A stretch of DNA of 5,169 bases from Bacillota bacterium (lineage in GTDB: Bacteria > Bacillota_E > JAJZYS01 > JAILZS01), in assembly GCA_021817625.1 (NCBI GenBank), contig JAKASY010000197.1, positions 1 through 5,169 on the forward strand, written 5' to 3'. This document shows, in pieces, positions 1 through 5,169 of this stretch (its first letter is position 1; every line of letters begins with the position of its first letter). The notes under the pieces are model-generated. The model saw only the letters and a program-made list of their open reading frames with translations, made no database searches and was not told where the DNA came from. A program made the position numbers and the translations under genes.

Positions 1-128
1 TCCACGCCCAGGAGCTCAACTCCGACCAGGAGCACCTTTGCCCAGAGGTCGATGACGATGCCCTTCTCCAGGATGCGGTCGAGGACTTCCACCAGGCTGG
101 CACCGCCGAGACTGGTCTTGACAGCCAC
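1..128 (-). CDS. gvpA: Gas vesicle structural protein, GvpA/GvpJ family (N-terminal part, cut by window edge)
   Basis: GvpA is the small hydrophobic protein whose ribbed polymer forms the gas-vesicle wall; GvpJ and GvpM are minor paralogues. Only 42 residues are visible before the gene leaves the window. They begin [15 protein letters not shown], continue through [13 protein letters not shown] and end in VGVELLGV. This matches the conserved N-terminal half of the family: an N-terminal helix (SLAEVIDRILDKG in typical members) and then the wall-forming beta strand (VIDAWVRVSLVGIELL). Oddities are Lys where Arg is usual and Leu where Ser is usual in the RVSLVG segment. I chose the GTG at 128 because it gives the family's usual MAV N-terminus and follows a strong Shine-Dalgarno. 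An in-frame ATG at 164 would add 12 atypical residues and has no ribosome site. Seven of the 42 codons end in A/T, against none of the first 42 codons of the GT2 gene starting at 4753. The family call is firm; GvpA versus GvpJ needs the missing C-terminus. Confidence 0.87.
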
Positions 129-137
129 GGTAGCAAG

Positions 138-146
138 CACCTCCCC
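138..146 (-). promoter_or_regulatory. Ribosome-binding site of the gas vesicle gene
   Basis: The minus strand reads GGGGAGGTG here. Its GGAGG core (140-144) lies 11 nt before the GTG at 128, or 9 nt if the extended GGAGGTG match is counted. It is the strongest Shine-Dalgarno sequence in the window. It lies inside the coding extension that an ATG start at 164 would create, which is the main reason to prefer the GTG start. Confidence 0.75.
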
Positions 147-164
147 ATCGATCTCGGTACCCAT

Positions 165-400: not shown

Positions 401-1456
401 CTAGCGTGTGCCCGCCGCCGTCGCGTCGACGTGTCGGTGCAGGTGCTCGTGCACCTGCGCGGCCAGTCGCTCCCACGTCCAGTCGGCAGCGCTGCGCTCG
501 CCCGCGCGCGCAAGGTCACGCGCCCACTCGGGACGGGCCAGGAGGGTCTCCACCGCTTCGGCCAGGAGCCCTGGCGAGCGCGCCGGCACGATCAGGCCGT
601 TGCGTCCGCTTTCGACCAGGTCGTGCACGCCGCCCGCGTCGGCCGTGACCACCGGGGTGCCGCACGCCATCGCCTCCAGCACAGGCAGCCCGAGCCCTTC
701 GAACCAGGAGGGGAAGAGAAATATGTCAGAGCGCCGGTAGCAGTCAGCCATGGCCGCGTCGTCCGGCGCCACCCAGAGGTCGTACGCACCTTGGACGTCC
801 TCGACCGGCCCCTCCGGCATCGCCACCGCCACCCGCACGTCCGGGTGGCGCGCGCGCACGACCGCCATGGCAGCCCAGAATTCACGGTTGCCCTTGAACA
901 CGTAGCCGCGCGACGCCGGGCGGGCGATCGCGAAGATGCGTGGGCCTTTGCGGCTCAGGGGCGGCACTCGCCCGGCCGAGCGGTAGACCGCGTGGTCGAC
1001 GCCGGGCTGGACGATGCCCACCGGGGTCCTCCCGGTCGCGCCCGTCACCATCGCCGCAAGCCAGCGGGAGATGGCGAGGACCGGCACCGGCAGCCGATAG
1101 GTGGCAACGGCGGCCTCCCACTCGGGGATGAGGAGCGGCTCGAAGCTGAGGCTGAGGCGAAGGCAGCGGGGACCGTAACGCGCGTAGGCGGAGGCCGAGG
1201 TCATCCAGTAGTTCGGGAGGGCGACGTCGCCCTCGGGCAGGTACTCTGGTCTGAGGGAGGGCACGCGCAGCAGGCGCGAACGCAGGGCGTACGCCACCGG
1301 CTGTCCCTCGGGCACCACCATGGCGACGTCGACGCCGAGGTCGGTCAACCCGTTCGCGAGCTCGGCGAGAAACCGGCAGCCGCCCCCGATGTGCAGGCTG
1401 ACGTTCGGGATGACCACCCGCAGCGGCCGCCGCTGGCAGCGCGGGCACGGAGGCAC
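401..1456 (-). CDS. Glycosyltransferase family 4 (GT-B fold)
   Basis: This is a predicted retaining GT-B glycosyltransferase that moves a sugar from a nucleotide donor to a growing surface glycan at the cytoplasmic side of the membrane. With a GTG start at 1456 it has 351 residues, within the usual GT4 range. The first Rossmann domain opens at about residue 12 ([15 protein letters not shown]), the glycine-rich loop of the family. The C-terminal domain carries an RGYVFKG segment near residue 185 and the EX7E signature in [12 protein letters not shown], with glutamates at about 253 and 261. GTPVV and GLIVP segments follow, typical of donor binding. The central [11 protein letters not shown] / LAISRWL region faintly recalls WsaF-type rhamnosyltransferases, which is not enough to assign a substrate. 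The open frame runs further upstream but overlaps the preceding gene. GTG 1456 has a GGGAG sequence 10 nt before it; GTGs at 1525, 1516 or 1417 are alternatives. Fold is confident, donor and acceptor unknown. Confidence 0.9.
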
Positions 1457-1466
1457 GGCCCTTAGG

Positions 1467-1471
1467 CTCCC
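1467..1471 (-). promoter_or_regulatory. Candidate ribosome-binding site deciding the GT4 start
   Basis: GGGAG on the minus strand, 10 nt upstream of the GTG at 1456. It is moderate in quality. A purine-rich GGAGGGGG run further upstream sits too close to the GTG at 1516 to serve it well. The start choice therefore remains uncertain by roughly 10-25 residues. Confidence 0.4.
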
Positions 1472-1553
1472 AGGTCGGTTGCGTTCATTGCTCGACCAGC
1501 TCTGCGATGCGCCCACCCCCTCCACCGCCGGCGGATCGGATGCCGGCCCGCCG

Positions 1554-3170
1554 TCAGGTCCGCCTCGCCACGCCAAGCCACTCGAGATGCTCGGGCACGC
1601 GCACGGTGACGAGGCGCACCAGGTCGCGGGCATCGAGCACCGGCCTCTGCCAGCGTCCAGCCAGCTCGAGCACAAGCGCCGGCGTGCGCCTGCCTGCGTC
1701 CACCAGGGCGACGTCGAAGCCTGAGGGGTCAACCGACGCACCCGCGGCGCCGTCCTCGAGCACGATGCTGCGCAGCTCCGCCAGTCCGTGGCCCGCCACC
1801 CGCGCGAAGTCGCTATCTAGCGCGTCCCGGCGGTCGCACACGAAGAGAAGCCGGACGGGCGGCACCCGTGCGGCCAGAACCCGCGCAAGCCGCACGCCTC
1901 TCGGCGACGCCAGACGCGTGGTGCTCCGGGCCACGACCAGCGTGCGGCCCAGGGGGCGCCAGGCGAGCAGGGGCGCGGGCGGGCGGTCGGGCACGAACGG
2001 CACGCCCACGACGTCGGGCAGGCGGGCCCGGGTCGCGACCCATGTCTCCTCGGGTCCGTCGGAGACGCTGACGTAGGTGAACGAGCGGCCACGCGCCACC
2101 GCGTCCGCAAGGGCGGCCAGCCAGTCGTCGGCGCAGTCGAGGCGGCGGGCGCCGCCGTCGACAAGGCGCAGGCCCTCCGCCGCGCACTCGTTGGGGTCGA
2201 GACCGAGCGCCAGGCCCTCACCGCCCCGCCACAGCCGGGTCAGCGTGTCCTGGTAGCCCACCTGGACGGGGAGGGAGACGCGCTCCTGGAATGCCGACAG
2301 GTCCGCCAGGACGTTCGGCCGCCAGGCACCGGCGAGGTCCCTCACGCCGACGGCTAGCTCGTCGCCCGCCCGACCGATGTCGAGCGCGACCCGTGCGAGC
2401 CGCCGGGCAATGCCTGCGCAGATGGGCACGGACGCCGCCCCGGCCGCCACGAGCGCGAGGTCGAACCGCATGCCCTCCAGGCGGGCGAGCACACCGTCCG
2501 CGGCGGCGATGCCGGCGACCGGCGCGACCGGTGCCACGTCGGCCACTCCGCCCGCGCGCAGGGCATCGCACACGCGCTCCGCCTCGTTGCCGACCACCAC
2601 CACGGCGCGTCGCTCCGGGCCAAGCACCAGTCGCTCCAGCCAGCCCCCGGCGTGCAGGGCGGCGCCGGCTGTGGAATCGGCCACCAGCACCCGGCCGAGA
2701 TCCACGCCTTGTCGGGTTAGCGCATGGACTGCAGTCGCCTGGGCCACGAAGTGCCGGCTCACGGGCAGGCCCAGCGCGTCCGCCTGCCGCACCGCCGACA
2801 CGAGGCGCTGACGGTCCTCCTCGAGGCTCTGCACGCTGTCCACCCGGTACCCGGCATTGGCGAAGGCGGCCAGCGGCACGGGGACGACGAACGGATTGAG
2901 CAGCTCGGCGGCGCCCATGCGCAGGGCATACGCCTCGGTGTCGCCTACGCTCGCGAGCGCGAACCCCCGGCCCTCGTCCAGGGCGGCGCGCACACGCTGG
3001 TACAGTAGAGCCGGACCGACCCCGGCGGCGGCGGCGCGCGCCCGGCGGCGGGCGCGGGCGGTGCCGAGCTGAAGGACCGCGGCGGGGGTCATGGAGAGGG
3101 GCCAGCCCTCCGGCGGACCAAGGGCTTGGACCATCGCCAGGGTACGCCCGTACTCGAGAAGGTCGTCCAC
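1554..3170 (-). CDS. Large protein with tandem GT-D-like glycosyltransferase domains
   Basis: This 538-residue protein has no signal peptide or membrane segment that I can see. Residues about 55-275 resemble the GT-D fold (the DUF1792 / GT-D-like glycosyltransferase group). A GRGFALASVGDTEA motif holds D77 and E79, corresponding to the family's metal-binding DxE. A helical stretch with AVRQADALGLP follows (about 126-136). Then comes FDLALVAAGA (236-245) and LARVALDIGRAGDEL (258-272), the 'can it be cancelled / DiGh' part of the fold. Residues about 350-520 repeat this order in weaker form: GRSFTYVSVSDGPEE (361-375), PVRLLFVCDRR, FDVALVDAGR (485-494) and RPVLDARDLVRL. The second copy lacks about 40 residues, including the AD..G-P helix, and has D371 with E374/E375 in place of DxE. 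The GTG start is supported by AAGGGGG 7 nt upstream. It sits 66 nt after the GT2 gene. Activity is inferred; the second half may be a non-catalytic partner domain. Confidence 0.75.
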   Translation of the reverse strand: MDDLLEYGRTLAMVQALGPPEGWPLSMTPAAVLQLGTARARRRARAAAAGVGPALLYQRVRAALDEGRGFALASVGDTEAYALRMGAAELLNPFVVPVPLAAFANAGYRVDSVQSLEEDRQRLVSAVRQADALGLPVSRHFVAQATAVHALTRQGVDLGRVLVADSTAGAALHAGGWLERLVLGPERRAVVVVGNEAERVCDALRAGGVADVAPVAPVAGIAAADGVLARLEGMRFDLALVAAGAASVPICAGIARRLARVALDIGRAGDELAVGVRDLAGAWRPNVLADLSAFQERVSLPVQVGYQDTLTRLWRGGEGLALGLDPNECAAEGLRLVDGGARRLDCADDWLAALADAVARGRSFTYVSVSDGPEETWVATRARLPDVVGVPFVPDRPPAPLLAWRPLGRTLVVARSTTRLASPRGVRLARVLAARVPPVRLLFVCDRRDALDSDFARVAGHGLAELRSIVLEDGAAGASVDPSGFDVALVDAGRRTPALVLELAGRWQRPVLDARDLVRLVTVRVPEHLEWLGVARRT

Positions 3171-3236: not shown

Positions 3237-4052
3237 CTAGGGCGGCTCAAGGCCACCCGCCCGGTACCAGGCCCGCGCCTTCTCCAGCACCCTGGCGTGG
3301 TACGCAAAGGCGTCGTCGCGCAGGCTCAGGTTGCCGCCATGCCAGCGGTAGCGGATGAGCGGCAGGGGGATGTGGCCGAAGCGGTGGTCGCGCGAGAGCC
3401 TCAGCCACATGTCCCAGTCCTGGGCCTGGAGGAGGCCCTCGTCGAAGCCCCCGACCGCGTCCATCGCCGACCTGCGCACGAGCGTCGTGGAGCCGTTGAT
3501 GAAGCAGAAGCGGAAGAGCTCGCGCACCATCCTGGCATGGTCGTCGAAGGCAGAGGAGCGAAGGAGGTAGCTGTTGCCCGTCAGCTCGTCGTCGACATAG
3601 ACGTCGGCGTATACAAGAGCGACGTCGGGGTGCGCGCGTAGGTACGCGACCTGCGCGGCCAGCTTGTCGGGCATGAACCGGTCGTCGCTGCTCAGCCAGG
3701 CGATGTGGCTGCCGTGCGCCTGCCGGATCGCGGTGTTGAGGGCGGCGGCGGTGCCCGCGTGGTCCTGGCGCACCTTGCGGACCGGCATCGACAGCGGCCC
3801 CAGCGCCTGGATCTCCCCCCAGCCGCCGTCGGTGGAGCCGTCGTCCACGATCACCAGCTCGAGGTCCCGGAAGGTCTGCGCGTCGACGCTCTCCACCGCG
3901 TCACGGACGAAGCGCCGGTGGTTGTAGACAGGGATCACCACGCTCACGAGTGGCGCCCTGGCCGGTGCCGAGACGCCCGGCGCGAGGTGCGAAAGGGCCG
4001 TGCTCAGCCAGCCCCGCCTAGACCCTAGCGGTCCCTGCCGGCCGGCGGTCAA
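3237..4052 (-). CDS. Glycosyltransferase family 2 (GT-A fold), second of a tandem pair
   Basis: This is a predicted inverting GT-A glycosyltransferase acting on a surface glycan precursor in the cytoplasm. With the TTG start it has 271 residues. The GT2 core begins at about residue 36 with VSVVIPVYNH. It has the nucleotide-binding DDGSTDG at 70-76, the AALN helix at about 104, and AWLSSDDRF with the metal-binding SDD at 122-124. FINGSTTLVRR follows, then QDWDMWLRL at 211-219 carrying the acidic residues at the expected catalytic-base position, and IRYRWHGGNLS near the end. No membrane segment follows the domain. It is clearly paralogous to the GT2 gene just upstream. TTG 4052 is chosen because its TTGA overlaps the upstream stop by 4 nt and GGAGG lies 8 nt before it. 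This adds a roughly 35-residue, Gly/Arg/Pro-rich lead-in not typical of the family. A GTG at 3947, with AGGG 8 nt upstream, would give a standard compact N-terminus. Substrate unknown. Confidence 0.92.
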   Translation of the reverse strand: MTAGRQGPLGSRRGWLSTALSHLAPGVSAPARAPLVSVVIPVYNHRRFVRDAVESVDAQTFRDLELVIVDDGSTDGGWGEIQALGPLSMPVRKVRQDHAGTAAALNTAIRQAHGSHIAWLSSDDRFMPDKLAAQVAYLRAHPDVALVYADVYVDDELTGNSYLLRSSAFDDHARMVRELFRFCFINGSTTLVRRSAMDAVGGFDEGLLQAQDWDMWLRLSRDHRFGHIPLPLIRYRWHGGNLSLRDDAFAYHARVLEKARAWYRAGGLEPP

Positions 4053-4753
4053 GGTCCCGTCCTCCGGTAGCGAGCCTGGACGACCGGCCGGTAGGCCAGC
4101 GCGTCCGGCCGTGCGCTCAGCCGGCGCGGGTGGACGCGGTAGTAGACGAGCGGCTCGGGAATGTGGCTGAAGTCGTATGCGCGCGCAAGGCGGATCCACA
4201 TGTCGTAGTCGTGCGACTGGGGGAGGGACTCGTCGAACGGCCCCACGCGGTCGAACGCCTCCCGCAGGATGAGCGTGGTCGAGCCGTTGATCAGGCAGCC
4301 GCTGCCGACCAGGGCGTCGAACCACGCCTGGCGGTCAGGATAGGTTGGGGGCCGCTCCCGCCGGAGGATGTTGCCGTCCTCGTCCGTGCTGTAGAAGTCG
4401 CTGTAGACGAGGCCGAGGTCGGGGAGGGCGGGCCGCTCGCGCTCGACCTGCGCCATCTCGACCTCGAGCTTGCGGGGCAGGAAGCGGTCGTCGGCGCTCA
4501 GCCAGGCTACCCACTCGCCCCGCGCCAGCGAGATGGCACGGTTCAGGGCGGCGGCGGCACCGCGGTGGGGCGCGCGCACGAGGGTGACGCGCGGCAGACG
4601 GGCCGCCACGCGGTCCGCCGAGCCGTCGGTCGACCCGTCGTCCACGACGATCACCTCGTAGTCGCCGTAGGTCTGGGCGAACACGCTGTCGAGCGCGGCG
4701 TCCACGAACTCGGCGTGGTTGTAGAGCGGCATCACGACGCTGACGCGCGCCAC
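4049..4753 (-). CDS. Glycosyltransferase family 2 (GT-A fold), first of a tandem pair
   Basis: This predicted inverting GT-A glycosyltransferase has 234 residues, a compact single-domain form. It starts directly on the first beta strand (ARVSVVMPLYNH). Visible motifs are DDGSTDGS from residue 38, GAAAALNRAI (65-74), AWLSADDRF with D88/D89 as the DxD-equivalent metal site, INGSTTLILRE (155-165), HDYDMWIRLA (181-190) with catalytic-position acids, and a VYYRVHPRRLS tail. There is no transmembrane segment, so it presumably works as a soluble or peripheral enzyme. The GTG start lies 2 nt after the epimerase stop, with GAGGA 9 nt upstream inside that gene's last codons. It overlaps the next gene by 4 nt. 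All of its first 42 codons end in G or C. The sister gene downstream follows the same motif order through to the C-terminus (LSARPDALAYR here, LSLRDDAFAYH there), which suggests a duplication followed by divergence in specificity. Substrate unknown. Confidence 0.93.
   Translation of the reverse strand: MARVSVVMPLYNHAEFVDAALDSVFAQTYGDYEVIVVDDGSTDGSADRVAARLPRVTLVRAPHRGAAAALNRAISLARGEWVAWLSADDRFLPRKLEVEMAQVERERPALPDLGLVYSDFYSTDEDGNILRRERPPTYPDRQAWFDALVGSGCLINGSTTLILREAFDRVGPFDESLPQSHDYDMWIRLARAYDFSHIPEPLVYYRVHPRRLSARPDALAYRPVVQARYRRTGP
4061..4065 (-). promoter_or_regulatory. Ribosome-binding site inside the upstream gene, with a TTGA stop/start overlap
   Basis: A perfect GGAGG lies within the last codons of the first GT2 gene, 8 nt before the TTG at 4052. 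The TGA stop of the first gene (4049-4051) and this TTG share bases as TTGA. This is the arrangement expected for translational coupling, in which ribosomes ending the first gene restart on the second. It favours TTG 4052 over the downstream GTG 3947. Confidence 0.6.
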
Positions 4754-4755
4754 GG

Positions 4756-5169
4756 CTAGGCGTCCTCGCGCGCCGTCTGGGCGCGCATCCAGTCGACGGT
4801 GCGGGGCACGCCCACCTCGAGCGGCGTGCTGGGGCGATGGCCGAGGTCCGCCACGGCCCGGTCGATGCGCGGCCGCTTGTCCCGGCAGTTGTGAAGCTCG
4901 CGCCCGACGCGCCGCGCGAGGGCGGGACTCGCGCCGGTGGCCCCGAGGACGATCCGGGCCAGATCCTCCACCGAGCGGTACTCGGCGCCGCCCACGTTGT
5001 ACACGGCGCCGGCGCGAAACGCCTCGGCGGCGTTGGCCAGGGTCGCGACCGCGTTGTCGACGTACATGAAGGCGCGGTGGTAGCCCTCGTACACGTCGAA
5101 GGGGAGCCCGTTCACGGCATGGTAGACGAACAGGCAGACGACGCTTCGGTAGGGGTGGTAGGCCTCCCC
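4756..5169 (-). CDS. NAD-dependent sugar-nucleotide epimerase/dehydratase, extended SDR family (C-terminal part, cut by window edge)
   Basis: The visible 137 residues are the substrate-binding C-terminal half of an extended short-chain dehydrogenase/reductase that converts a nucleotide sugar, presumably supplying a donor for the transferases encoded downstream. The frame is open to the window edge and begins GEAYHPYRSVVCLF, a segment seen in epimerase/dehydratases of polysaccharide clusters. GYHRAFMYVDNAV (about residues 30-42) is the R-x-F-x-Y-V-D-D region that contacts the sugar nucleotide; here the second Asp is Asn. AVYNVGGAEYRSVEDLA (about 56-72) is the conserved VYNVGG strand, and DLGHRPSTPLEVGV leads into the terminal VDWM helix near the end. 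The Rossmann domain with GxxGxxG and the YxxxK catalytic pair lies outside the window. Substrate (epimerase, 4,6-dehydratase or decarboxylase type) therefore cannot be fixed. It leads into the GT2 gene with only 2 nt between them. Confidence 0.9.
   Translation of the reverse strand, partial: GEAYHPYRSVVCLFVYHAVNGLPFDVYEGYHRAFMYVDNAVATLANAAEAFRAGAVYNVGGAEYRSVEDLARIVLGATGASPALARRVGRELHNCRDKRPRIDRAVADLGHRPSTPLEVGVPRTVDWMRAQTAREDA
4763..4767 (-). promoter_or_regulatory. Ribosome-binding site of the first GT2 gene
   Basis: GAGGA on the minus strand, within the last codons of the epimerase gene and 9 nt before the GTG at 4753. With the 2-nt intergenic gap this indicates co-transcription and probable coupling of the two genes. 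Confidence 0.45.

Follow-up and report, generated by a model that had tools for sequence, protein, structure and literature searches.

The 538-codon open reading frame (ORF) at positions 1554..3170 on the minus strand of the window (the whole stretch of DNA that was analyzed, 5,169 nucleotides) appears to encode a GT-D-like glycosyltransferase whose C-terminal half resembles a second, degenerate copy of the same domain. Our preferred reading, to which we assign a probability of roughly 55%, is that the N-terminal half (residues ~55–275) is a catalytic GT-D-like domain, while the C-terminal half (residues ~340–515) goes back to an old internal duplication and has since degenerated. Its later part is probably a divergent GT-D-like copy, as judged from sequence comparisons, with duplication being on balance the likelier cause of the resemblance. 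The C-terminal copy has probably lost catalytic activity, and a second active site is unlikely.

The frame runs without a stop through 538 codons, beginning at a GTG at position 3170 and ending at 1554, and an ATG at 3134 is also possible as a start. GC content by codon position is 0.84/0.54/0.88, a coding-like base use that is similar across ten successive 150-base stretches, and the ORF is a real gene (75% GC). In the order of transcription, it is preceded by an NAD-dependent sugar dehydratase/epimerase-like gene, of which the window edge leaves the 3′ part (4756..5169; TIGR01181, E = 2e-9, below the cut-off of that model; no Pfam match at E 1), by a GT2 family glycosyltransferase of 234 amino acids (4049..4753; PF00535, E = 7.6e-30) and by a second GT2 family glycosyltransferase (3237..4043 for the stretch as scanned; PF00535, E = 3.6e-28). 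It is followed by a GT4 family glycosyltransferase (401..1456, 351 amino acids from a GTG at 1456, longer starts being possible; PF13692, E = 2.1e-23) and by the beginning of gvpA, which encodes a gas-vesicle protein, at the other edge of the window (3–164 with an ATG at 164; PF00741, E = 8.6e-9, for the residues encoded at ~98–3). All of these genes lie on the minus strand. The same-strand flanking frames with a family match before gvpA are sugar enzymes, gvpA itself being located downstream of the glycan genes, and, judging by these family matches, the neighborhood has the character of a polysaccharide or glycan cluster. The GT4 frame remains open upstream of the GTG at 1456 into the GT-D-like gene, with possible starts up to 1741 (1457–1741, minus strand), and an overlap of the two genes is possible. 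The two adjacent GT2 transferases (3237–4753, minus strand) are alike by eye. Among the 60 listed of 545 plasmid records, the lowest E value for the GT2 transferase at 4049–4753 was 3e-37 (36% identity), obtained with a plasmid of Priestia megaterium that also carries spore-coat genes.

The N-terminal half had been proposed to be GT-D-like in a sequence-only reading of this DNA, and two curated profiles, both matched above their cut-offs, strongly support this proposal. Residues 55–270 (2361..3008, minus strand) align to positions 5–208 of the 210 positions of PF22882 (GT-D-like; E = 8.3e-32, 110.7 bits, curated cut-off 27), and residues 55–275 match NF040628 (GT-D fold domain-containing glycosyltransferase; E = 2.1e-25, 89.6 bits, cut-off 75). 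DUF1792 was absent from the Pfam matches of the protein at E 1, and a PDB sequence search with the full 538 residues found none. The N-terminal copy contains a DxE motif, D77-T-E79 (2934..2942, minus strand), as a candidate metal site. In DUF1792, the enzyme on which the GT-D class was founded, Mn2+ is coordinated by a DxE (Asp-X-Glu) motif, according to a paper on TagA (PMC6493773). By analogy, D77 and E79 would be the same residues as those of the DUF1792 motif, and the place of the motif in PF22882 would correspond likewise.

The name of PF22882 refers only to a fold-like domain, and full-text searches of open-license literature found no paper under that name or accession, nor any that mentions NF040628, ‘GT-D-like’ or ‘GT-D fold domain-containing’. 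This leaves some room for the view that the N-terminal half is not a transferase and that the protein as a whole, although it belongs to the GT-D-like superfamily, is non-catalytic or acts in some other way. We consider this improbable given the presence of the DxE motif, the three glycosyltransferase neighbors and the naming of NF040628 as a glycosyltransferase, although a name is no test.

The order of motifs in the N-terminal half had further been claimed to recur in the C-terminal half. All eight motif strings quoted for this claim are present, in the claimed order: GRGFALASVGDTEA from residue 67 is paired with GRSFTYVSVSDGPEE from residue 361 (offset 294), RRAVVVVGNE from 187 with PVRLLFVCDR from 438, FDLALVAAGA from 236 with FDVALVDAGR from 485 (offset 249), and VALDIGRAGDEL from 261 with PVLDARDLVRL from 510. 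The computed alignment contains an additional pair that had not been listed before, GRVL-VADST (159) and GRTLVVARST (408), again with an offset of 249. A shortening of the C-terminal copy by ~45 residues between the first and the later motifs is thus seen, as had been described. The further claim that the AD..G-P helix is necessarily part of what was lost was rejected, as two computed alignments disagree: one pairs ADALGLP (130–136) with PDVVGVP (385–391), while in the other the same C-terminal stretch is aligned to NPFVVPVPLAAF and AD..G-P stays unpaired.

The plain pairwise likeness of the two halves is weak and suggestive only. Their Smith-Waterman score was 68, as compared to 43.9 ± 7.7 for shuffled sequences; of 1000 shuffles, 8 scored at least as high, and 4 of 1000 did so when gaps were softened and ends trimmed. 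When the comparison was split, 15 of 5000 shuffles attained the score of the later part (residues 159–290 against 408–538) and 157 of 5000 that of the first part (50–158 against 335–407). The repeat claim is therefore supported for the later motifs, which are also supported by the profile chimeras described below, while the first pair is only marginal. Among real segments of high-GC proteins, the score of the two halves was reached by 15/812 (raw) and 4/812 (z), with softer gaps by 8/812 and 10/812, and with an alignment permitting one long gap by 2/762 and 3/762 (raw and z, respectively). The later part alone, with a score of 62, was equalled by 20 of 5563 overlapping real segments. BLASTP gave an E value of 0.029 over 29 residues and hhalign of the single sequences a P value of 0.039 over 29 columns. 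In phmmer, the comparison scored 2.8 bits, less than at least 8 of 2000 shuffles, and the C-terminal half was not separated from shuffles.

These last values are compatible with a substantial, if less probable, alternative, namely that the C-terminal half is an accessory domain of unrelated origin, either Rossmann-like or of another alpha/beta type, and that the parallels arise from shared periodicity and from the Ala/Val/Leu-rich composition of a gene with 75% GC. The phmmer score, which was no better than that of shuffles, fits such a domain, as do the unrelated real segments that score equally (15/812 raw; 20/5563). The same applies to the C-terminal half on its own, which in three different cuts had no Pfam or NCBIfam match at E 10 and stayed below the curated GT-D-like cut-off.

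Because HMMER may drop a weak half-domain, C-terminal residues 408–538 were joined behind N-terminal residues 50–158, and the joint sequence was scored. On PF22882, this chimera reached 39.3 bits in a single alignment to positions 5–200 of 210, extending to residue 511/512, as compared to 32.4 bits for residues 50–158 alone and 30.5, 30.6 and 31.6 bits for two scrambled controls and one reversed control. On NF040628, the same chimera obtained 32.1 bits (positions 6–189 of 223, extending to residue 493), as compared to 28.0 bits for residues 50–158 alone and 25.5–26.4 bits for eight controls, among them five real segments taken from the window's own GT4, GT2 and epimerase-like proteins. In a PF22882 test with a shorter anchor, the piece of the C-terminal half scored 24.7 bits (E = 1.7e-5), and none of the 25 other members of the set of 26 did better; all 25 carried real segments, 24 of which had been picked from 5563 overlapping segments for their high similarity to the second part of the N-terminal half. 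The gain is only 6–9 bits over the controls and 4–7 bits over the first part alone, and since PF22882 and NF040628 probably share members, the two chimera tests are not fully independent. The collinear gain of residues 408–538 over the controls indicates resemblance to the GT-D-like family, not membership in it. At the profile level, these tests establish that residues 408 to ~500 resemble the second half of GT-D-like domains. The stretch that extends the GT-D-like profile behind the first N-terminal part (residues 408–512; 1635..1949, minus strand) is the one highlighted both by the chimeras and by the shuffles of residues 408–538 (15/5000). An unrelated domain would not readily explain why both profiles extend collinearly into the later C-terminal half (to 511 on PF22882 and 493 on NF040628), nor why none of the 25, 3 or 8 controls, segments of the neighboring GT4 and GT2 proteins included, scored as well.

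No gain was observed for the first segment of the C-terminal half. In the opposite chimera, residues 335–407 placed before the second N-terminal part scored 69.2; the second part alone gave 70.2, and three controls ranged from 68.6 to 70.8. Likewise, residues 340–377 (2040..2153, minus strand), the start of the C-terminal half with the claimed GRSFTYVSVSDG parallel, scored 96.1 when placed before residues 84–290, the same as residues 84–290 alone (controls 95.4–97.2). The C-terminal copy with N-terminal residues 84–122 inserted in its gap matched nothing, and neither did its scrambled control, while replacing N-terminal residues 123–158 by 378–407 made a difference too small to favor either view (84.2 vs. 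81.6 and 81.7 for scrambled sequences and 82.8 for a plain deletion). For the first strand and the D371/E374 pair, the parallel consists of a likeness seen by eye and the marginal pairwise score of residues 335–407, and we do not extend it beyond these. The claim of a degenerate second copy is thus supported by the controlled chimeras from residue 408 to ~493 (NF040628) or 512 (PF22882), and falls short for the first segment with D371/E374 and for the C-terminal half taken alone. The lack of profile support for this first segment is a further point in favor of an unrelated domain.

The sequence-only reading had left the choice between a two-site transferase and a catalytic domain combined with a pseudo-domain. 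In the first case, both halves would be active GT-D sites, making the protein a GT-D counterpart of the bifunctional dGT1, which sets a precedent for two transferase activities, GT-D and GT-A, in one protein (PMC5063993). D371 and E374/E375 are located near the expected DxE position. However, the proposed counterpart of the motif, D371-G-P-E374-E375 (2046..2060, minus strand), has an altered spacing and no profile support: the C-terminal half reads D-G-P-E-E, not D-x-E, where the N-terminal copy has D-T-E, the segment with D371/E374 adds nothing to the profile score, and the C-terminal copy is ~45 residues shorter. Two active sites therefore appear very improbable, and the combination of a catalytic domain with a pseudo-domain is the better of the two options.

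Structure prediction was of limited use. Single-sequence AlphaFold gave a mean pLDDT of 35 for the whole protein, which is not usable, and of 45 for residues 340–538. The low-confidence model of the C-terminal half contains strands at 365–368, 410–416, 439–445 and 486–491, over or beside the claimed motifs, in alternating helix-strand order. FD.ALV-like strands in such an order are common to many Rossmann-like domains. Foldseek with this model (pLDDT 45) returned no match at E 0.001, the top chains being GTPase, isomerase and aminotransferase-like, and VIA with the same low-confidence model gave Z scores of at most 7.7 with Arf-type GTPases on top. No GT-D enzyme was present among the best 50 rows of either search, a result that carries no weight with a model of such low confidence.

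No homologue was found in protein-database searches with the full-length protein, residues 50–285, or residues 232–285 of a 400-amino-acid piece; these searches rank by shared five-letter words, which are easily filled by Ala-rich proteins, and do not establish absence. Searches of genome contigs with the 538-amino-acid protein and of viral contigs yielded no relative, and neither did tblastn of the full protein against plasmids and phages or of the N-terminal half against plasmids at E 10, while the C-terminal half had one plasmid match, in a transposase (E = 4). Such homologue searches favor close relatives and do not show that none exist; as no homologue came up, they gave no sign of conservation for either half. 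A degenerate DNA pattern derived from a GT-D ending (VA.D.GH) retrieved 25 viral stretches, 22 of which carried the motif in frame; none was GT-D-like by eye. Scanning genome contigs with the neighboring GT4 identified one Kofleriaceae contig. In the phylum of genome G001, one of 140 genomes had a PF22882 match at E 0.001, below the cut-off; the profile was found in none of 57 genomes, all drawn from genomes already encountered, and in none of 15 plasmid records, and NF040628 was found in none of 56 relatives. Since nothing was found in control genomes either, these zeros say little about the occurrence of the family elsewhere. In genome G085, from the phylum reached through the Kofleriaceae contig, residues 230–281 of a 327-amino-acid protein (L002 1360–2343, minus strand) match the end of PF22882 with 21.3 bits, below the cut-off. 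This protein carries FDVALIGAGG, which resembles the FD.ALV-type motif of the 538-amino-acid protein.

Returning to the preferred reading of a catalytic domain followed by a degenerate copy, we infer that an old internal duplication of a GT-D-like domain would have given rise to the C-terminal half, which would then have been shortened by ~45 residues and have lost the DxE spacing. The N-terminal domain may bind a nucleotide sugar and a divalent metal via D77-x-E79 and add a single sugar to a surface or extracellular glycan under construction, which the neighboring GT2, GT2 and GT4 enzymes would also build. The C-terminal copy would transfer no sugar and might pack on the N-terminal domain as an acceptor-binding or stabilizing lobe. 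The substrate and the role of the C-terminal copy are inferences. A more specific proposal, which we make tentatively and consider doubtful, is a GT-D enzyme of two tandem lobes, formed by internal duplication, in which the second, a degenerate pseudo-transferase, would bind the acceptor or contribute to a composite cleft between the two. If true, a tandem arrangement whose second site has decayed would show how a small domain gains acceptor binding, and the presence of both halves in one chain allows a direct test by mutating each.

GT-D is an apparently little-studied glycosyltransferase fold, with ten papers naming DUF1792 in the open-license full texts searched. A literature search on inactive tandem glycosyltransferase domains found nothing, and none of four papers retrieved for tandem GT-D glycosyltransferases dealt with the subject by title. 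The N-terminal half matches nearly the full length of both PF22882 and NF040628, yet these profiles describe a single domain, whereas the 538-amino-acid protein has a second, weakly matching copy in the same chain. TagA, which has a GT-E fold, is described as having limited structural homology with DUF1792, as lacking a DxE motif and as ion-independent (PMC6493773), and is set apart by this description from the N-terminal half, which has the motif. The nearest described multi-domain case is dGT1 of Streptococcus parasanguinis, in which a DUF1792 (GT-D) domain precedes a GT-A domain and both have an activity of their own (PMC5063993); the earlier statement that GT-D can be fused to another transferase fold is correct for this enzyme. 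In both proteins, a GT-D-type domain forms the N-terminal part of a longer chain that belongs to a glycan pathway. They differ in that the C-terminal domain of dGT1 is GT-A, whereas the C-terminal half described here has no Pfam match at E 10, including no GT2 match, while both GT2 neighbors match PF00535, and it leans toward a GT-D-like domain.
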